Below, piece by piece: positions 39,279 to 53,014 of a stretch of 64,000 nt of DNA; the first letter of the stretch is position 1, and every line of letters begins with the position of its first letter. The notes beneath the pieces are model-generated. The model was not told where the DNA came from. It saw nothing but the letters and a program-made list of their open reading frames with translations, and searched no databases. Source of the DNA: Mastigias papua (Eukaryota; Cnidaria; Scyphozoa; Rhizostomeae; Mastigiidae); NCBI GenBank assembly GCA_964019165.1, contig OZ025283.1, forward strand, positions 2,425,501 through 2,489,500, in the 5' to 3' direction. A program made the position numbers and the translations under genes.

Positions 39279-39791
39279 TGTTGGGAAACTCCCTTGAGTG
39301 CGCGCAGTAATTTGCATGGTGATTGTAGCAAATACCATTGTTTGTAATGTTCATTCATTATATATTTTTTGGCATACAGCAAGCTCTCGTGAGTAAGGAA
39401 TTTTCCTTTCTGTATTGTAAAAGTACTCCATTGACGTATTAGCCTCACATGCATGTATATGAGTAAGCGGTTACGGAAACTGAGTAAGCAACCAACCCTT
39501 AACATGGCAAGGTGCTTAATATAAAAGTATTGTTAGTAGATTTAAGGGCACATATTTTGTTTCCTGTTATTTAGAATGTGATTGGTTGAAATTTACTATT
39601 GTGTGCATGTTATTATAACTAAACATATTTTGAAGTATGAATCAGTAGTTGTTGGGAGTTGTGTAAGAAAGATGTAATGTGGGATAAAATATGATGGAGT
39701 ACAAAAAATCAAACTGGAGTATTCTATTGTATATGTGTCTTCTTGTGTCATAAATGCCGAAAAGAATCAGAGTAGATTGAGATCTACAACA
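39279..39791 (+). repeat. BEL3 5' LTR
   Basis: TGTTGGGAAACTCCC ... ATCTACAACA. Identical length to the 3' LTR. Confidence 0.97.
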
Positions 39792-39793
39792 TT

Positions 39794-39811
39794 TGGTCCA
39801 CCGAGCCGGAT
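39794..39811 (+). other. BEL3 primer binding site
   Basis: TGGTCCACCGAGCCGGAT, the same 18 bases as in BEL2, two bases inside the LTR. Likely tRNA-Tyr type, not certain. Confidence 0.7.
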
Positions 39812-39909
39812 GCATTATGAGTCAAGAAACATAAGATGTCGAAGAGAACGAAGAATTCGATTTCTGGAAAAAGAAAAGAAGCGTCTTTCGAAGGAACACG
39901 ACGAAACTG

Positions 39910-42900
39910 GTGAATAAAATTGTTGAATTACAGGGAGGAGACGATGAACCGGACACCAGGAAATTGAAAAAGTTTTGCGTACAGTTGAAGAAACAACGGG
40001 ATGATCTGGAGGATTTGGACGACAAAATTTTGGAACATTTGTTGAAAAATGAAGATGAAGACGTGTGTGACAAAGATATGGATGATTCAAGTGACTACAG
40101 GGATAAGATTACAGATGCATTGATGTTTATGGAAGAAAAATTAGGAGAAAATAAAGAAACCGCGAGTGTAGCTTCGGGGAGTAAACATAGCATCGCCAGA
40201 AGTGTCTCGGAAGAAAGTCTTGTTTCGAATGAGTCACAAAAGTCAACGTCGAGTGAAAGGACGAAGAGACGAGTGAGGGTAAAACTGCCGAAATTGGAGA
40301 TCAAGAAGTTTTCCGGGAAAATTCAAGAATATCAAGACAGTTTTAGGAGTGCTATCCATGAAAATGACGAGCTGGCGGACGTGGATAAATTGAAGTACTT
40401 GAAGGGATATCTCGAGGAGCCGGCAAGATCAGTGATTGGCGGATCACCAATGACGGATTCCAACTACACAATCGCCGTGGAATTGTTGAAAAAGAGATAT
40501 GCGAAACCGAGTATGATTCAGCACGCCCATATTAATCAATTGATCAATTTGCAGCCTATTTTCAATGAGGACAACGTCACAAGGTTGCGAAGTTTCCGGG
40601 ATCAAATCGAGGCACATTATAGAGGGCTGGAAGCCATATCAGTGGACAAGCTCACATACTCCAAGATCGTAGTTCCTGTGTTGATGGAAAAGCTGCCAAA
40701 ACAAATCCGTATTGGTATGGTTAGATCTGCAGGAAAGAGTATGTTGGAGTGGTCAGTGGATGAAATGATATCTGCACTCGATTTGGAGTTGGAAGTTCAA
40801 GAATGCCACACATCGTTACTGAAAACTGGTATTGTTGGTGCTAGCAGTGAAGGAAGGCGGCCTAAAGAGGTTTCGAAGATGGGATCTAGTGCAAGTGCAC
40901 TGTTTACAACTGAGGATGGCTGGAAGAAGACAAATGAGAAGTTATGTGTTTTCTGCTGTGCAGAAAATCACGACTCAGGTGAATGTACCAAACATAAGGA
41001 CCCTGAAGAGAGAAAAAACATTCTCAGAAAGCATTTTAAATGTTTTATTTGTCTGAAGGGGGGTCACCGATCATTTGAATGTAGATCCAAGCTTAGATGC
41101 AATTTCTGTAAGGCGAAACATCATGCCGCAATTTGCAACAACAAGCCTAGGCCCAGCGGGGTAAGCGAGAATAAGGAAGCGCAGCAGCTAAATCCCAATG
41201 CGACAACCTGGGTGGGAAGTTTACATTCCGGGAATAGTGTGGCCTTACAAACAGCCTTGGCAAATGTGGATGACAAAAAAGAAATGAAGGTCAGAGTGCT
41301 TTTTGACTCGGGCAGCCATAGATCGTTCATTACTGCCAAGGCTGTAAAAGATTTAGGTTTGAGGCCAGTGAGGAAAGAAAATCTTGTCATAAAAGCATTT
41401 GGAAGTAGGGAAAATGAGCAAGTGAGAGATATCGTAGAATTTTCTCTTGTTTCTGTAAAGGGAGGAAAGAGGGTGAAAGTTTCTTGTGTTGTAGTAGATG
41501 ATATTGCTAGTATCAATAATGTTCATGTAGAAAAAGTAAAGAAACTTTACCCCCACTTGCAAGTAATCTGGTTTTCAGATGTTTCCAGGTATGATGACAT
41601 TCTTAGCATCCAGGTACTCATTGGTTCAGATTATCAACGGGAGTTTTTGGAGGGAGAAGAGAAACGAGGGGGGCCACATGAGCCTGTGGCCATCAAAACT
41701 TCTCTTGGATGGGTGCTATCTGGGCCTGTGAAAGGTAAGAAATTGAATTCCAGTATTTCTGTGAATTTTGTTTCATCCTTTGAGCCAAAAATGAGGAAAA
41801 TTGAAGAAGAAGTGAATAAGCTATGGGATCTTGACAGCTTAGGGATTAGAGCAGAAGATGAAGTCCACGAGAATCTTGTTGATAACATTGTGTTTACCGG
41901 GGAAAGATACTCAGTTTCATTGCCCTGGAAAGCAGGTTATGGTCCTTTGCCTTATAATTATCAAACATGTGTAGCAAGGTTGAAAAGTCAGGTGAAAAAA
42001 CTGAGGCAAGACCCTGAAATTTGTAAGAAATACGATGAAATTATTTCAGAACAGGTTGATACAGGTGTGGTTTCAAAAGTATCAGACATGGAAAAAGCTG
42101 AAAAGATTTCTTACCTACCACATTCAGCAGTTGTCAGAGAAGAAGCTGAGACAACAAAGGTAAGAATCGTTTATGATGCATCTTGTAAAGATAAAAATAC
42201 CGGGACATCATTAAATGATTGCTTGCATGTGGGTCCTTCCTTGACGCCCCTTATTTTTGACATCCTGTTGAGATTCCGAAATAATAAAATTGCACTCATA
42301 GGTGACATTGCTAAGGCATTTTTAAATGTGGAAGTTGATCCAGCTGATAGGGACTGCCTAAGATTTCTCTGGTTAAACGATATCACTGCTGAAGAACCAG
42401 AGATTATTGTTCTGAAATTCAATAGAGTTGTATTTGGTGTTAAGAGTTCTCCATTCTTACTAAATGCTGTATTGCGACATCACATACTTACCTTTCAGGA
42501 GATGGATGAAGATTTTGTAACTCAGTTGTCACATTCTTTTTATGTTGATGATCTTGTGACAGGTTCCAACAGTGCAGAAGAAGCATATAATCTTTATGTC
42601 AAAGCACGGGAGAGAATGTTGGAAGGAGGCTTACAGCTGAGAAAATGGAAGACAAATGATGAAAAACTTCGAGAAAAAATTCTTCAGAATGAAAAAAGTG
42701 TGTGTTGTGTTGACCCTGAGAAAGAGGAACAATCTTTTGCCAAGGAAACTATAGGGCCTATTCAGGAGACAGGAGGGAAAACGAAGGTACTTGGCATAGT
42801 ATGGGATAATGAGAAAGATGAGTTACAATTTGACCTGACCAAAATGATAGGAAATTTCCAGGGAAATAAACCAACAAAAAGAGGTATTCTCAGCACATTA

Positions 42901-45354
42901 GCCATGTTATTTGATCCATTGGGCTTGACAAGCCCCTTGGGGGTCACTGCAAAAATCTTATTTCAGGAATTGTGCCAAGAAAAGTTGGATTGGGACACTC
43001 CAATTCCAGATAGCAAAATTGCAAGATGGCAAGAATGGTTAGAGGAATTAAACCAGGTAAAGTACATAAAGGTCCCTCGGTGTGTTTATGACAAAGGTGA
43101 AGGTGAGATATTAGAATGCCAACTGCACGGGTTTGGAGATGCAAGCCAAAAGGCATATTGTGCAGTTGTGTACATTGTTTACAAAACCACCCAAGGTACT
43201 TACACTGAACTTTTATGTTCCAAGTCTAGAGCTGCTCCACTAAAGGGTCTTAGCATTCCACGCCTTGAATTGATGTCTGCAAGAATACTTGCAGTCTTGA
43301 TGAACAATGTCATTCAGGCTTTATCTTCACAGGTGACCATCAGCAAGGTTAAGTACTGGCTTGATAGCAAAACTGCACTCTACTGGATATACAACCAGGG
43401 TGAGTGGAAGCAGTGGGTGCAGTTTAGGGTTTCTGAAATATTGAAGCTATCAAAGAAAGCAGACTGGGGCCATGTAGGGGGTGTTAACAATCCTGCAGAT
43501 ATAGGTTCGAGAGGAGTAACTGCAACAGTTTTGAACAACAGTAGATTATGGTGGGAAGGTCCAGAATGGTTAATAAATGGTGAAAGTGAATGGCCTACCA
43601 GTTTAACACTTGAAGATTCAGCTGACATTAAAGATGAGAGAAAAAAGGCACTCATGTTGACAGTGGTAGCAGAGTGTTGTGAAAATGTCAGTAATGTTGT
43701 GGATATTGAAAGGTTTAACTCATTGGAAAGACTGCTGAGAGTAACAGCATGGTTGAGGAGATTTATAGATAATCGTAAGAAAAAGAGAGAGAAAAGAGAC
43801 TTGAAGAAAGGGAGTTTGGAGGTGCATGAAATTGAGAATGCAGAAAAGATGTGGATAAAGGATGCACAAAAAATGTTGAAAAAGAGTCCTGATTTTGAGA
43901 AAACAAGAGTTCAGTTAGGATTGGTAGAGAAGGGTGATATTTTAGTCTGCCAAGGAAGGTTAGGGAATTCAGACCTTGAGATGGAATCCAGGTTTCCAAT
44001 TATTCTACCCAAGGAGAACAGGTTTACTGAATTGGTTGTGTTACAATGTCACCAAAAGGTCCATCATTTGAAGGTTAGAGCCACATTGGCTGAATTGAGA
44101 TCTAAATTTTGGATTACTAGGGGGAGACAGTATGTTAAAAAGATTTTGAAACCATGTTTTGTTTGTAGGTTGTTGGAAGGAAGGTCTTATCATGCACCTG
44201 CTACAGCAAACTTGCCAAGCTTTCGTGTGACAGAAGCACCGCCCTTTAGCAGCACTGGTGTGGACTTTGCTGGTCCATTATTGGTTAAGGAGAAAAATGG
44301 TGAGATGGTTAAAACTTATATTGCTCTTTTTACGTGTTGTATCACTAGAGCTGTTCATCTTGAACTGGTGAGTGATTTGAGTACCTCAACATTTTTAAAT
44401 TGTTTACGAAGATCCTGCGCAAGGAGAGGTACACCCAGACACATTGTTTCAGACAATGCAAAAACTTTTAAGTCTGCAAATAAAGTTCTCTACAAGATAC
44501 TAAGCAAACATGAGGTTGGAGAATTTTTTACATCAAAACACATCATATGGAAGTTTAATCTAGACCGCACTCCGTGGTGGGGTGGGGTGTTCAAAAGGAT
44601 GGTCGGGACAGTAAAAAGGTGTTTATGGAAAGTTTTGGGCAATGCTAGACTTACCCAAGATGAAATGAGTACTGTGCTTGTGGAAATAGAAAACACAGTG
44701 AAGTCCAGGCCACTAACTTATTGTGATGAAGAATATGATTTACAGGTACTGACACCTCATTTGCTTGTTGGAAGAAGAATATCTGCATTATCTGACAATG
44801 TTGATATTGATTTAGATATTGATGAGGATGCAAATGATTATAATCTCTCAAAAAGGTTCTTGTACTTGACCAGAAAATTAGGCCACTTTTGGAAAAGGTG
44901 GCGTAATGAGTATCTTTTAGGTTTGCGTGAGACACACAAGATGCAGAAGAATAAGTCAAATGATATCTCAAAGGGAGACATTGTACTTGTGTATGAAGAT
45001 AACCAAAAGAGAAATGTTTGGAAAATGGCCATTGTGGAGGAGCTGATTAAAGGGAAAGATGGGGAAGTCAGAGGAGCAAAGGTTAGAAAAGCAGCAAAGG
45101 GTAAGCCTATAATTTTGAATAGACCTCTTCAAAAGTTATTTCCTTTAGAGATTGAGCGAAAAAATGCAAGCAAGGAACGATTGAATGGCGAAGAAGGTTT
45201 AAAAGAAACTGAGGAAGGAGTGAATGAGGAAGATAGGAACCCTGGGAGGGAAAGACCGCACAGGGCAGCAGCCAAGGATGCGCGCTGGAAGACGCAGCTT
45301 ATGCTTGACCTGCAAGCAGCTCAAGGAGGGGGGTGTGTTGGGAAACTCCCTTGA
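39910..45354 (+). CDS. BEL3 gag-pol polyprotein
   Basis: About 1815 codons without stop. Gag with charged coiled-coil N-terminus and LPKLEIKKFSGK; CCHC fingers CVFCCAENHDSGEC and CFICLKGGHRSFEC (about 40950-41090); protease VLFDSGSHRSFI; RT VRIVYDASC, LIGDIAKAFLNVEV, LRFLWLND and the YVDDLV box; RNase H LHGFGDASQKAYC, IPRLELMSARIL, WLDSKTALYW; H2C2 finger; integrase TGVDFAGPLLV and IVSDNAKTFKSANK. The third integrase catalytic position is Lys (44593-44595 AAA) where BEL2 has Glu. No ATG opens this frame: it can begin at GTG 39910 or upstream in the same open stretch after TAA 39832, while ATGs at 39820 and 39836 lie in other frames that stop early, suggesting an indel near the start. The stop falls inside the 3' LTR. 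Probably not autonomous. Confidence 0.9.
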   Translation: MNKIVELQGGDDEPDTRKLKKFCVQLKKQRDDLEDLDDKILEHLLKNEDEDVCDKDMDDSSDYRDKITDALMFMEEKLGENKETASVASGSKHSIARSVSEESLVSNESQKSTSSERTKRRVRVKLPKLEIKKFSGKIQEYQDSFRSAIHENDELADVDKLKYLKGYLEEPARSVIGGSPMTDSNYTIAVELLKKRYAKPSMIQHAHINQLINLQPIFNEDNVTRLRSFRDQIEAHYRGLEAISVDKLTYSKIVVPVLMEKLPKQIRIGMVRSAGKSMLEWSVDEMISALDLELEVQECHTSLLKTGIVGASSEGRRPKEVSKMGSSASALFTTEDGWKKTNEKLCVFCCAENHDSGECTKHKDPEERKNILRKHFKCFICLKGGHRSFECRSKLRCNFCKAKHHAAICNNKPRPSGVSENKEAQQLNPNATTWVGSLHSGNSVALQTALANVDDKKEMKVRVLFDSGSHRSFITAKAVKDLGLRPVRKENLVIKAFGSRENEQVRDIVEFSLVSVKGGKRVKVSCVVVDDIASINNVHVEKVKKLYPHLQVIWFSDVSRYDDILSIQVLIGSDYQREFLEGEEKRGGPHEPVAIKTSLGWVLSGPVKGKKLNSSISVNFVSSFEPKMRKIEEEVNKLWDLDSLGIRAEDEVHENLVDNIVFTGERYSVSLPWKAGYGPLPYNYQTCVARLKSQVKKLRQDPEICKKYDEIISEQVDTGVVSKVSDMEKAEKISYLPHSAVVREEAETTKVRIVYDASCKDKNTGTSLNDCLHVGPSLTPLIFDILLRFRNNKIALIGDIAKAFLNVEVDPADRDCLRFLWLNDITAEEPEIIVLKFNRVVFGVKSSPFLLNAVLRHHILTFQEMDEDFVTQLSHSFYVDDLVTGSNSAEEAYNLYVKARERMLEGGLQLRKWKTNDEKLREKILQNEKSVCCVDPEKEEQSFAKETIGPIQETGGKTKVLGIVWDNEKDELQFDLTKMIGNFQGNKPTKRGILSTLAMLFDPLGLTSPLGVTAKILFQELCQEKLDWDTPIPDSKIARWQEWLEELNQVKYIKVPRCVYDKGEGEILECQLHGFGDASQKAYCAVVYIVYKTTQGTYTELLCSKSRAAPLKGLSIPRLELMSARILAVLMNNVIQALSSQVTISKVKYWLDSKTALYWIYNQGEWKQWVQFRVSEILKLSKKADWGHVGGVNNPADIGSRGVTATVLNNSRLWWEGPEWLINGESEWPTSLTLEDSADIKDERKKALMLTVVAECCENVSNVVDIERFNSLERLLRVTAWLRRFIDNRKKKREKRDLKKGSLEVHEIENAEKMWIKDAQKMLKKSPDFEKTRVQLGLVEKGDILVCQGRLGNSDLEMESRFPIILPKENRFTELVVLQCHQKVHHLKVRATLAELRSKFWITRGRQYVKKILKPCFVCRLLEGRSYHAPATANLPSFRVTEAPPFSSTGVDFAGPLLVKEKNGEMVKTYIALFTCCITRAVHLELVSDLSTSTFLNCLRRSCARRGTPRHIVSDNAKTFKSANKVLYKILSKHEVGEFFTSKHIIWKFNLDRTPWWGGVFKRMVGTVKRCLWKVLGNARLTQDEMSTVLVEIENTVKSRPLTYCDEEYDLQVLTPHLLVGRRISALSDNVDIDLDIDEDANDYNLSKRFLYLTRKLGHFWKRWRNEYLLGLRETHKMQKNKSNDISKGDIVLVYEDNQKRNVWKMAIVEELIKGKDGEVRGAKVRKAAKGKPIILNRPLQKLFPLEIERKNASKERLNGEEGLKETEEGVNEEDRNPGRERPHRAAAKDARWKTQLMLDLQAAQGGGCVGKLP
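45323..45335 (+). other. BEL3 polypurine tract
   Basis: AAGGAGGGGGGTG directly before the 3' LTR; the gag-pol frame reads through it. Confidence 0.85.
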
Positions 45355-45848
45355 GTGCGCGCAGTAATTTGCATGGTGATTGTAGCAAATACCATTGTTT
45401 GTAATGTTCATTCATTATATATTTTTTGGCATACAGCAAGCTCTCGTGAGTAAGGAATTTTCCTTTCTGTATTGTAAAAGTACTCCATTGACGTATTAGC
45501 CTCACATGCATGTATATGAGTAAGCGGTTACGGAAACTGAGTAAGCAACCAACCCTTAACATGGCAAGGTGCTTAATATAAAAGTATTGTTAGTAGGTTT
45601 AAGGGCACATATTTTGTTTCCTGTTATTTAGAATGTGATTGGTTGAAATTTACTATTGTGTGCATGTTATTGTAACTAAACATATTTTGAAGTATGAATC
45701 AGTAGTTGTTGGGAGTTGTGTATGAAAGATGTAATGTGGGATAAAATATGATGGAGTACAAAAAATCAAACTGGAGTATTCTATTGTATATGTGTCTTCT
45801 TGTGTCATAAATGCTGAAAAGAATCAGAGTAGATTGAGATCTACAACA
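45336..45848 (+). repeat. BEL3 3' LTR
   Basis: Copy of 39279-39791; differences are A/G, A/G, A/T and C/T single bases. Confidence 0.97.
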
Positions 45849-46381
45849 GTAATGTAATAAATAGAAGACAGATATTCTTTCTTACAACACTACTGAAACA
45901 GATACTTGAGAAGCCCATGGGCAAAGTGAGACATTATCCTGTTCCATTGAGATGGGGGATTGAACATGACAGTGTAGTAGCCATAGAAGAATACGTGAGA
46001 AAGAAAAAGCTACCTTTGACAGCAATGACAAGCTGTGATTTTGTTATAAATCCAAAATGGCATTTGCTTGGTTGTAACCCAGATGGTATTATTGTTGGGA
46101 ATGGGTCACCAGATACTTGTATTGAAGTAAAATGCCCTTACAGTAAACGAAACTGCTCAATCAAGGAAGCTGCATTGACTGATAAGAGCTTTTTCATGAA
46201 TGTGCTAGAAAACAAATGTGACTTAAAAGTTGGCCACTTTTATTATTATCAGTCTCAGGGGCTAATGACTATTCTAGAAGTAGCCTGCATTGATTTTGTA
46301 GTTTTCGCAAACAGAGATATTCATGTTGAGAGAATCTTCAGGGATCAGACTATGCACTTGTTTTGTATTTATTTTGTATAA

Positions 46382-47249: not shown

Positions 47250-49027
47250 CAGTGCGCCTGCAGCCTTACGAACTTATTTCTCCTTAGGAAGGGAGGAATA
47301 GTCCGCTTGACTCCCTTGAGTAAGTCACAAGCTATACCAAACTGTTTGCCAGCCATACTTGTGTCACCTTCATCTTAAATGTCCAGAATACCACATGCCA
47401 TAGTTATGTGTTTATCATTGATTCTTCCAGCATATAAATCAGAAACAAAAGCAACTGCCCAACTTGGTGCTATTCCAATTAAGCCTTTGGCTGTATTATG
47501 GTGTTTATAGTTTGAGAATGCTACACTCTGTGATCTAACAGAACTGGACATTTTACGATAAAGTTCTATACAGTCAATAATAACACGTGATTGATTCATG
47601 AACTTGAGGGCCAGATAGGAGCATACGAAAATAACTGTGGAGGAAATCATACCAGACGATACACATTTTTGACATACGAGACTGTGTAGACGGAAATGGT
47701 AGGCAAGATCATCTTCAGGCAATCCAAGTCTTAATCTTACAAGTACTCATAAGTGCCTAATTGCCATCCCCCCTGCTACTTAAGGTTTTGAAAATTTTCC
47801 AATCCCCCGCTGTTATTAGGACTCCACCGGCACTTATTTTTAACATATTTTGTGTTGTCACTTGACTAGTAGACTGTGCAACAATGTGTCATCCTTAAGA
47901 AAGGAAAAACTACAAAGGTTTTATCTTCAAAGATGGAGACATTTCTAAGCATAGTGCAATTTTGGTCAGTGTGACGTGTTCTGAAACCATTTAGTATATA
48001 TGATAGTCCATGCGATGCAACTATTCTAATACATAAAGGAACACAACAATGAGTCAAGCAAAAGACACTTTATTCATCAGTTGGAGAAGTATACATTGGC
48101 AGAGACGCAAAAACTTGGGGAATGCATTGAAAAAGGTGTAAAAAAGAATACAATGCTCAAGTGGAATGTTTCAAGGGAAAGCTTTGATATGATGCCAAAT
48201 GCAAAAAGTTTACACCACAGGATATTAGGAATTTATGTTACACTTTCATAGCTATATCATTGTTCTATTGATATTGTTTGAACTGATTTTCCATTAAGGG
48301 GTCATTCACTATTTACTTCATGCTAGGGGGTGGGTGGTTCTTCAGGTTTTTTGTGACACAGTATGACGGTAAGTAAGGGGGGTGGGTAGTACTTATTTCA
48401 AGTCCATAGCATCACGTATTAAAACAGTTTGAAATAACGTTTTATTTGAATTTGTTACTAAAGATGTTGTTTTCTGTTTTTATGTCATGTAAAGAGTGCT
48501 TTATTAAAACTGTTTCAAAACCATTTGGATGTGGATTTCACAAGTTTCAAACCATTCGAGTTTCAAATTCAAATGTTTGAAAAACATAAGTTGAATTACA
48601 GTAATGTAGATATCGAAAATACTTTTTCGCTTTGTTTTGCTTTGAACATTTGAATGTTTTGCAGTTTTCGGCAGTGAAATATGACGACTCCAAATGATCA
48701 ATATGAGCTCAGCTAAAAGATTTTGCAGCCGCATCAAGAGTCTGTTACAGCATATAAATAAAGGTTTGCTTGTGAGAACAAACACGCTGCTGTTATAAAG
48801 TTTTCACCAATGTGGCAAAAAGTAAGAAAGGAATTCAAAGCTTTCTCTCAGCTAAAATCTCAAGCCCAGTCTTAGATTGCAACATGGAAGGATGACACTA
48901 AGTCAGCTTTAACTCGAAAAGGCACCATCTGTTCCCGTTGGAAAAACTCTGCAAATAAAGGTAAATCACTGTATTTGTAAGCCTCAATGAACACTCTTCA
49001 AAGTAAAATGTCCAACCCAGGCACTAA

Positions 49028-49769
49028 AGCCTGAAATACACTGTCAAATGTATTGCATCCACTTTATTGGATTGCGATACATTGGATGGTGTAGACGCAA
49101 AAAATGGATGATATTTGGCTCTTCCAACAAATTGGAACATAGATTAAAAAAGTTGGACGTGTTCAACTTTCATCCACCTTTTTTCCATTGTTCCTCCTAA
49201 TCCCTATTGTTCTTCTTGGTGCTAAGAGGACATTTCCCAACTATTGTCACGTCTTCATCTTTCGTGCACATGCTTGCAAAGTGAACACGAAATGAATATT
49301 GCAGGTCTGCATAACTGTTGGCAGTAGCTAGAAATTGAGTATATGCAGCCAGCTTCATTTGCGCAGGAGTTGCATCATGACGTAAAGTGTCTTATTTTTG
49401 AATCTCTACTTCAACGAGGCTTAGGGGCTAATAGAAAGTGTAGAGTGACATCTATAAAAACTGTTTGACTTCCTTGTCATTCTCCAGCCACAATTCCTCT
49501 AAAAGAGTGTTACCTACACCAAGCTCATTATGTTGGGTTAGCCCCAAACCGATCTTTGCCTTTTCTGGCACTTTCTTTTCCGATACTTGCTAGTGATGGC
49601 AACTAGAAGTGCTGCAGCGAAACACTCGTCCTCAGAATCCATGATGAAATGAGGAAGTTGTACAGAAATCGTTCCACTGTATTGGATGAGTGTAAACAGG
49701 TGTTGTCATCCAATAAAGTGGATGATCCATCTAATCGAATCCAATAACTTGGACAGTGTATTTCAGGCT
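49028..49769. mobile_element. 742-bp Harbinger MITE
   Basis: Ends AGCCTGAAATACACTGTC (49028) and its complement (49769), target duplication TAA at 49025-49027 and 49770-49772. Inside the ends, TCCACTTTATTGGAT is also inverted. The minus strand core reads KRKCQKRQRSVW and, after frame changes, ELGVGNTLLEELWLENDKEV, an N-terminal Harbinger transposase fragment. Confidence 0.85.
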
Positions 49770-50569
49770 TAAGACTCGCATCACAGTTGTATACCTCTTC
49801 CCAATCCAGACCTCTTGCTCAACTAGAACTTTTACTCCTGTTGCAAAAACATAGGGCACTACATTGTCACAGACTTTGCTTGGTTTGTTTCAAAAGCAAG
49901 TTGTATGATTGGCTAAAAACCAAATGTTTTGCATTTTGGATTGTTAAACAAGTATGTTACTGCCGAAAACAATGTTCACATTTTTTAGAAAAGTGTTGGT
50001 TTTACTCAGATGTTTGGTCTTTAAACCATTGTTTTTAAATGTTTCGGAATAATTTCATATTCAGCCCTCCTAGGTACTTTGGTAGAGGTGGGACGATACC
50101 CCTTGTAGGCCTAACTCCAAATGTGTGGATATCATTTCAAAATAAAGTAAACATGCATCACATACTGTACATGTGCAAGGCGTAAACTCCCAGCGCTGTT
50201 TTATAATCTTTCATCGTTAAAACAAACTAGTTAGATCTCCTTTCTTTGTGTTTTTAGGTGCAGCTGGTTAATTGAAATTTCCAGTACCGGCTTCCACCTC
50301 TTCTCCCATTCTATAGTTAATGAAACTTTGGTTAATGAAACTTTGACAATTGCTGATGCAAATGAAGATGAGGGTGGGTTGGCAGAAGAACAACCCTGGA
50401 AACACAAAAACCAAATCACCTCTAAGCAAGATGAGCTTCGCAAACAAAGTAAAATAGTAAATGAGATATTGGTGGTTTATTCAAGAGAAAAGAGCTCAGC
50501 CAGTTGACCGAAAGTGATTGAGGTGAGATCAAAACACTTAAGGAAAACCTGGAAAAGTTAAAGAGAAAA

Positions 50570-52368
50570 CTTAGAGAACTGAAGCTCAACTGACGACATC
50601 CATAAAGTACAGAAATGAACGAAAACGAACGCTTGATGCGTTAGATGAAGCAACAACGAAGAAGATAACTGGGAAAGGAACTCCAGTACCGGGCCGCCCA
50701 CACAGGCATGATAACACCGAGTTGATTGAAGCAATACGTCAAAGTGCGATACCTGGTTCTGCTGCACATGAAAGACGATGCAACAAAGTCATAGAAACAG
50801 TTAAATCACTTGACCAATTAACAGAAGCATTGAACCATAAAGGCTACACTTTACAGTGTTCCTCTGTTTACCTTTTCTTGTTCCCAAAGAACTCCAGAAC
50901 TATAGAAGGAAGGAGACATATTCACACTTCTCCTGTTAAACGTTTTAAGTCACCACATTCAACACATGCAGCTCATGTTTCTACAAAGTTTGCAAGATCC
51001 AGTATCAAGTCTGTGGAAGAGATTGCAACTATTTTAGGACCCAAAGAAGTTATCATTCATTATATGGATGACAAAGCAAAAGTTCTGATAGGTATCACAG
51101 CTGCCAAGAAACAAACACTGTTACTAATGCACATGGAATATCAAGTAACATTACCTGAATATGATTTCAGTGTTGGCTCCAAACATAAATTGATTCCTTC
51201 AGTTATTGGTGATATGACAGTCATTAAGAGTAAGGATCTCACTAATGATGGTGTTACTTATTACGTCCTATGTACATCACCATTAGAAGTGCAAAGCAGT
51301 CTGGTTCTTCTGCCCTCACTCACCTTCATGACATGAACAGGGCATGATCCCACCTGAATGCACCGAAAGTTTCCAGAACCAACAGTTGCAAGACAAGAAA
51401 GTGATGATAGTTACAGTTGAAAGAGGTCCAGATGAGATGAGAATCCTAGGTATTCAAATACCATTAGCTGCGCCATTGAGTATTTCTGAGAGCATGACCT
51501 TGGTGCTTATTTCCTTGCAACAAATGCACCAGGAAGGAGTGCCTTTAACCAAGTTGAGAGACGAATGTCCAACCTCAACAAGAAATTGAGTGGTACTCTC
51601 CTCCCCCATGACCATTTTGATACCCATTTAGATAATAACAACAAAACTATTGATGAAGAATTGGAACTTAGAAACTTTGAATCTGCAGCTGAAATTCTTG
51701 CTGAATTGAGGTCAAAATTGGTGATTGATGGTCATCCAGTTGTTGCTGAATTTATAAATGAGGAGCAGTTGGAAATTACAGTCACAATGCAGAGAAATGG
51801 AACGCAAAACATGTCAGGGGATCACAATATTTTTTACAAATCATGAAATCCACCAATGAGGCATGTTGCTCGCTGTTTCAATCATCCTACTTAAAAATAG
51901 TGAAAGATCGATTTTTGCCACCTCCTATCCCAGTAATTTACTCTCAAAATGGTGTTATTGAATGGGCAAAAGATGATAGGGAAGCTTCATATTTATCCTT
52001 ATGTCAAATCAGTGCATTGAATGCTAGCCCTATGCTCACACATGCAACAACCAAATCTTGCAGACAATATTTGCAAACACTGCAGTCTTTATTTGGGAAG
52101 TATCAAATCAAGGCAATACCACTCAGCATACTGCCAAACAAAGGATTGGCTACCAGTTGCCAACAGAACAAAGGGGAGAAAAGTACAACTGCAACAAGTT
52201 GCAGCCTGTCGCCAAAATGAATTGTTGTGTGTGATTGCGAGTCAAGAGCTTGAATGGCATGCAATTGATGATGTTGATTTTGATGACAAGTCAGATATTC
52301 CAGAGGTTGTTGCCAAAAGTGGAGCCCCCATCCTTAATGATATGGATCCAATCTGGACAAGTGATTGA
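50570..52368 (+). pseudogene. Unclassified transposase-like protein (DDE/RNase H-like suspected), frameshifted
   Basis: Plus strand, pieces in three frames. KYRNERKRTLDALDEATTKK and GKGTPVPGRPHRHD, then HYMDDKAKVLIGITAAKK, LLMHMEYQVTLPEYDF, KHKLIPSVIGDM (50722-51336); VMIVTVERGPDE (51344-51589); ATNAPGRSAFNQVERRMSN and LLPHDHFDTHLDNN, SKLVIDGHPVVAEF (51520-51846); SSYLKIVKDRFLPPPIPVIY (51843-52220); ELEWHAIDDVDFDDKSDIPE (52230-52368). I recall related proteins as repeated sequences in sponges and cnidarians. Acidic residues in xDDKAxVxIG, VTVxxGPDE and PHDHFxTHLD are candidate metal ligands, but this is inference. At least three frameshifts, and GGPDE is changed to RGPDE. Confidence 0.6.
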
Positions 52369-53014
52369 TCAACTTGTATCTAAACCAAAGAAGCGATTGA
52401 CTTGATATTTACATTTTCTTAATTTGTTATATATTCAAAAGAAAACTTGCATTACTTTAAGTTTTCATGAGTTGCATATGTACTGGAATTTTGTTAAGAG
52501 AGGGGGGTTTTCTCTGTCTAGAGTGATGTCACACAAAGGGATCTCACATGAAACCATGACAGAGTGTAACAAGGGGGATGGGTGGTTCTAAAAACCCAAA
52601 CTTAGTGTGACATAATTATTGAACAGCCCCTAATAGTTACTTATTACACTGAACTATTGAAGCTATAGTTGCTAGACAATTTGCTTCTTAAATGGAGAAG
52701 GCAAACCAGCTACGAGTTCTTTTTGACATCCATTGATTAATATGATTTTACAAAACCACCCCTGCTAAGTCCGACAACCATTAAGTGAAGTGTCCAACGA
52801 AGTCCAACCCCCTAGTTAACTCTGACCCCCCCCAGCCATTAGGCACTTACGAGTACAAGGAAAAACTTATGCTCTGCTGTCAAGCATCGTTATGGGGCTC
52901 TCTTGTTGTACTTGGCATCTCCAAATTTCTCATGGTTTGCAGCAGAATCATGATACAACAGATTGTTTACAACAATCAAAAGAATCTGAGTAAAGCTTGG
53001 AATGTCACATAATC

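Follow-up and report, generated by a model that had tools for sequence, protein, structure and literature searches.

A decayed DNA transposon with an ISAzo13-like transposase, likely of the Zator superfamily, in the genome of Mastigias papua

Introduction

The Zator superfamily of eukaryotic DNA transposons reportedly goes back to Bao et al. 2009, and TP36, to which its transposase is related, we take to be the Pfam family PF07592. PMC10045372 describes Zator as the counterpart of ISAzo13 in eukaryotes and gives target duplications of 3 base pairs (bp) for both; the relation is also given in PMC5718144, and TP36 in PMC7386202. Here, we analyse a stretch of 64,000 nucleotides, referred to as the window, from the scyphozoan Mastigias papua (C21:2425501-2489500 of a 347-Mb genome in 172 contigs). 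At 48298-52630, it holds a 4.3-kb unit with GGGG...TTCA inverted ends, TAA on each side and a degenerate transposase gene. We read this unit as a decayed DNA transposon, likely a member of the Zator superfamily, whose own family combines an ISAzo13-like transposase with target duplications of 3 bp; cut and paste by an RNase H-fold (DD43E) enzyme is its predicted mode of movement. We put the probability of this reading at about 0.88.

Ends of the element and predicted fold of its transposase

A DNA transposon with GGGG inverted ends and TAA on both sides had been proposed from the letters alone in an original prediction, and the sequence bears this out, with ends identical at 13 of 18 bases:

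48295..48297, no strand: left copy of the target duplication, TAA (read from the sequence and compared with other copies)
48298..48315, + strand: left terminal inverted repeat, GGGGTCATTCACTATTTA (aligned with the ends of other copies)
52613..52630, - strand: right terminal inverted repeat, GGGGCTGTTCAATAATTA (aligned with the ends of other copies)
52631..52633, no strand: right copy of the target duplication, TAA (read from the sequence and compared with other copies)

This was the sole pair found in the whole window when GGGG/CCCC pairs at 3-5 kb spacing were sought that share their 3-bp flank and agree at 12 or more of 18 bases, against a mean of 0.04 in 100 first-order Markov simulations. 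The proposed alignment of copy ends gave the same picture, as the eight animal ends aligned consistently read GGGGYYRTTCA. Just inside both ends lies a G-rich block, GGGGGTGGGTGGTTCT (48326-48341) and GGGGGATGGGTGGTTCT (52573-52589), in the same orientation rather than inverted.

A protein search with a read-through of the window copy's broken protein retrieved 359 proteins at E ≤0.001 among 7996 scored candidates. Among the best 120 of these, the nearest relative is P0001, with 723 amino acids and 74% identity across the full query, and the named sources comprise Gigantopelta (mollusc), Myxine (hagfish), Hydra and Paramuricea (cnidarians), Parasteatoda (spider) and many insects, a wider range than the sponges and cnidarians expected at first. 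In an alignment of 58 relatives chosen from the same 120 (A1), D275 of P0001 is invariant, the D393 position is Asp in 55 and the E437 position is Glu in 57, with one gap; the last two residues are 43 apart in 53 of the 54 relatives with an intact triad. The predicted structure places them in an RNase H fold as a DD43E triad, in agreement with the fold and three acidic residues foreseen for the protein, and its fold matches include Mos1 and Metnase. Searching the family profile against the sequences of solved structures returned only 17 chance-level matches, ribosomal protein L32 and integrin among them (best E 0.049).

Kinship with ISAzo13

The protein had been thought to fit no known superfamily, and a clear match to one had been named beforehand as evidence to the contrary. 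Relatives give such matches to ISAzo13 profiles in Pfam and NCBIfam, as well as in profile-profile comparison, although the window pieces or P0001 alone do not. At E 0.01, PF07592 (DDE_Tnp_ISAZ013) is the only Pfam transposase model with a match among the 58 relatives; it matches eight, of which P0029 is the best (E 9.2e-7) and the only one above the cut-off (28.6 bits versus 26.9), with the coral protein P0098 slightly under it (E 9.2e-6). NF033519, the NCBIfam model for ISAzo13 family transposases, matches five of the seven relatives tested, with E values from 1.5e-10 to 0.0057.

For the profile-profile comparison, two full-length bacterial ISAzo13 transposases found by motif (L002 and L006, matching PF07592 at 387 and 442 bits) and 23 homologs out of the best 120 listed were combined into an alignment of 25 (A2). 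The animal family matches it at E 7.7e-7; the match spans 249 columns and keeps the blocks of the catalytic Asp, DHDF, DGG and the final Glu in register. The reverse comparison gives E 1.8e-5. Ten column shuffles gave E 0.10-0.58, the reversed profile E 0.019, and three other RNase H-type sequences of the window E 0.25-0.54.

The two groups share a related catalytic domain with the DHDF block and a similar last spacing (42 in ISAzo13, 43 in the animal family). Two bacterial elements have the ends GGAACTGTGCA and GGAATTGTGCA, with 3-bp flanks TTA and TAA if, and only if, the outermost A...T of the arms found is counted to the flank. When these ends are added to the eight animal ones, GG.....T.CA is still invariant, a resemblance that, though short, fits the kinship. 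The bacterial transposases are about 400 amino acids long and encoded in a single frame. Most of the animal relatives compared have 550-800 amino acids; their N-terminal part is predicted to consist of long helices, a few members show a weak C2H2-like match at the C-terminus, and the window subfamily probably has an intron. Sequence similarity between the two groups is remote. At the sensitivity used, a close prokaryotic or viral relative did not turn up in viral_contigs, genome_contigs or plasmids, where no match was confirmed and one search gave only matches at E ≥2, and the transposon end pattern has no occurrence in viral_contigs.

Target duplications and empty sites

At least 67 matches were found by a protein search of the jellyfish's own genome. 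Four of them (L018, L019, L020 and L021) extend over more than 500 residues without a stop and are 36-43% identical to P0001. Located at separate loci, L018 and L019 share 99.5% identity over 3785 bp, a closeness that suggests recent movement. L021 (G000:C15:4090947-4092473) is open and about 98-99% identical to L018, but AFNPIERRMSP, including the catalytic Glu, is deleted in frame, and its similarity to L018 ends before both transposon ends. A further copy on contig C6 (L015) shares 85.5-87.7% DNA identity with the window copy.

Five copies are complete with both ends, and in four the flanks are identical at exactly 3 bp, with sequences that differ: TAA at the window copy, GTG at L018, AAG at L019 and TTA at L020. 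The fifth is the C6 copy. Copies with a single end (gene-upstream in L024 and L031; gene-downstream in L025, L026, L030 and L036) or without any end matched by the patterns (L021, L022, L027, L028, L032 and L033) were left out of this count; the right end of L024 was not found within the 1.7 kb examined (L048). A third subfamily has the end GGGACCATACATTTATGACGTC downstream of its gene.

The empty-site check proposed with the element also succeeded. A query of 176 bases, made of the L018 flanks joined with one GTG, had 22 genome matches. The filled site accounts for two of them (query 1-88 and 86-176, with GTG as the overlap), and 18 run unbroken across the junction. Among eight junction-spanning sites checked, GTG stands once in L049, L050 and L051, TTG in L052, and CTA in four that are more diverged. 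The remaining two matches (query 1-93 and 90-176) belong to a repeat copy at G000:C11:8603705-8605347 that is interrupted near the L018 target by an insert of about 1.5 kb. Because other copies are flanked by GTG, AAG and TTA, and the empty L018 sites carry a single GTG, the target rule is 3 bp and not TAA, as had been assumed from the window copy.

The same flanks bear on whether the unit belongs instead to the Tc1/mariner type (pogo, Fot) or the Harbinger type, as TAA duplications occur in both. Tc1/mariner elements duplicate TA as a rule, and Harbinger elements TWA. The TAA flanks of the window copy agree with either type and the fold matches to Mos1 and Metnase with the former, and PMC7386202 describes TAA duplications for Fot-type pogo elements. 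However, GTG and AAG already contradict this placement, TTA was found as well, none of the 58 relatives matches DDE_3 or DDE_Tnp_4 at E 0.01, and window sequences of either type, used as controls, miss the profile (E 0.26 and 0.54). The animal family has no sequence-profile match to Tc1/mariner (Mos1, Metnase). The GTG and AAG duplications led to the rejection of Tc1/mariner and pogo, in which TA (TAA/TAAA with the Fot type) would be duplicated. PIF/Harbinger was rejected on DDE_Tnp_4, found in 0 of the 58 relatives, and on the Harbinger-type open reading frame of the window, which gives the E of 0.54; we consider either type highly improbable.

Placement in the Zator superfamily

Taken by its description, Zator is matched by this family in its eukaryotic host, its ISAzo13/TP36-related DDE transposase and its 3-bp target duplication, and the last two make membership likely; no feature compared sets the two apart. 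Five complete copies with matching terminal inverted repeats lie in the jellyfish genome, whose eukaryotic nature is also evident from BEL/Pao and Harbinger-type genes in the window. The transposase kinship is remote, with one relative exceeding the Pfam cut-off, and the duplication is seen both in the four identical flank pairs and in the empty sites with one GTG. By homology, a working protein would bind the GGGG...TTCA ends, excise the element rather than copy it, and join it to target cuts staggered by 3 bp, at which gap filling would then yield the duplication. Proteins of many animals (molluscs, insects, cnidarians, a spider and a hagfish) annotated as uncharacterised hereby gain a likely Zator-type transposase identity, together with ends, a 3-bp duplication and a catalytic triad.

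Several observations weigh against this placement. It draws on the ISAzo13 kinship and the duplication length, with Zator compared by description only. PF07592 goes unmatched at E 0.01 in 50 of the 58 relatives, fragments of the window copy's protein match Pfam only at chance level (best E 0.045), P0001 has neither a Pfam nor an NF033519 match, and P0002 lacks the latter. Within the genome, L020 matches ISAzo13 in neither Pfam nor NCBIfam, and L018 matches only NF033519 (E 6.9e-5). None of nine animal-family proteins tested reaches the curated NF033519 cut-off of 200 bits; as the best score is 40.7 bits, the family is, by these profiles, a distant relative of bacterial ISAzo13 and not a member of it. 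Comparisons with single bacterial sequences by hhalign are weak (E 0.0028 for L006, 0.059 for L002), and Foldseek found no match in the PDB reaching E 0.001. The flanks of the C6 copy, ATA and AAA, are not identical, nor are those of the bacterial elements when their arms are taken as found, starting one base further out (A...T).

These points leave some room for a eukaryotic lineage of its own, which would have descended from ISAzo13-like elements independently of the Repbase Zator families and would form an unnamed superfamily or clade. The remoteness of the ISAzo13 similarity is in its favour, as are the size of the family, its conservation across animals with blocks of its own, and the absence of the name Zator from the best 120 of the 359 relatives. 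Yet a missing name in automatic annotation carries little weight, and Zator as characterized in the literature cited (eukaryotic, with a TP36/ISAzo13-related transposase and a 3-bp duplication) is what the animal family shows. We thus hold such a lineage to be unlikely, and equally so its fuller version, a large, animal-wide lineage derived from ISAzo13 elements that stands apart from the named Zator families, has moved recently in this genome and keeps GG.....T.CA at its tips as a bacterial trace.

The window copy and its surroundings

The gene of the likely Zator element in the window is degenerate, with the following parts, the roles of the catalytic residues being assigned from fold and conservation:

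48681..48960, + strand: putative first coding exon of about 93 codons, interrupted by in-frame stops in the window copy (open in the C6 copy; splice sites placed by eye)
48961..50257, + strand: putative GT...AG intron containing the nested element, with its presumed donor GT at 48961
50258..52368, + strand: main transposase exon, with frameshifts and in-frame stops (exon start presumed)
51067..51069, + strand: putative first catalytic Asp (MDDKAK; D275 of P0001)
51419..51421, + strand: second catalytic position, Glu in this copy (VTVERGPDE; D393 of P0001), from the alignment with the 58 relatives
51556..51558, + strand: putative catalytic Glu (NQVERRM; E437 of P0001)
49028..49769, no strand: nested repeat of 742 bp that has the inverted ends AGCCTGAAATACACTGTC and is flanked by TAA at 49025-49027 and 49770-49772 (a genome repeat, absent from the C6 copy)

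The first exon was recognised through the C6 copy, in which about 93 codons are open up to a GT donor, and the transposase gene of this subfamily probably has an intron. The conserved protein blocks reported in the original prediction are present, albeit spread over different reading frames of a gene broken by frameshifts and stops, and one of them, given as VTVxxGPDE, conceals the second catalytic position, which reads VTVDGGPDE in P0001 and most relatives. On account of the frameshifts, the stops, the change of the second Asp to Glu and the nested element, the copy is dead and cannot make transposase.

The 4.3-kb unit includes a younger, nested element. The C6 copy is continuous across the site of the 742 extra bases, and the nested repeat is therefore a later insertion. 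Of 43 genome matches, 41 fall on this repeat; they are 81-95% identical to the first part of it, and some lie side by side. It is probably a non-autonomous, Harbinger-type element.

Among ten longer frames of the window scanned for protein domains, there are BEL/Pao-type retroelement genes, a Harbinger-type DDE_Tnp_4 gene and a DDE_3 gene. Rfam gave no match at gathering score on 47900-53000, and a transfer RNA scan returned none. A single frame of 1839 codons and 300-bp direct repeats with 100% identity suggest that the BEL/Pao-type retroelement at 39279-45635 was inserted recently. Just past it, at 45833-46381, a 182-codon frame encodes a YqaJ viral-recombinase domain (PF09588, E 7e-8).
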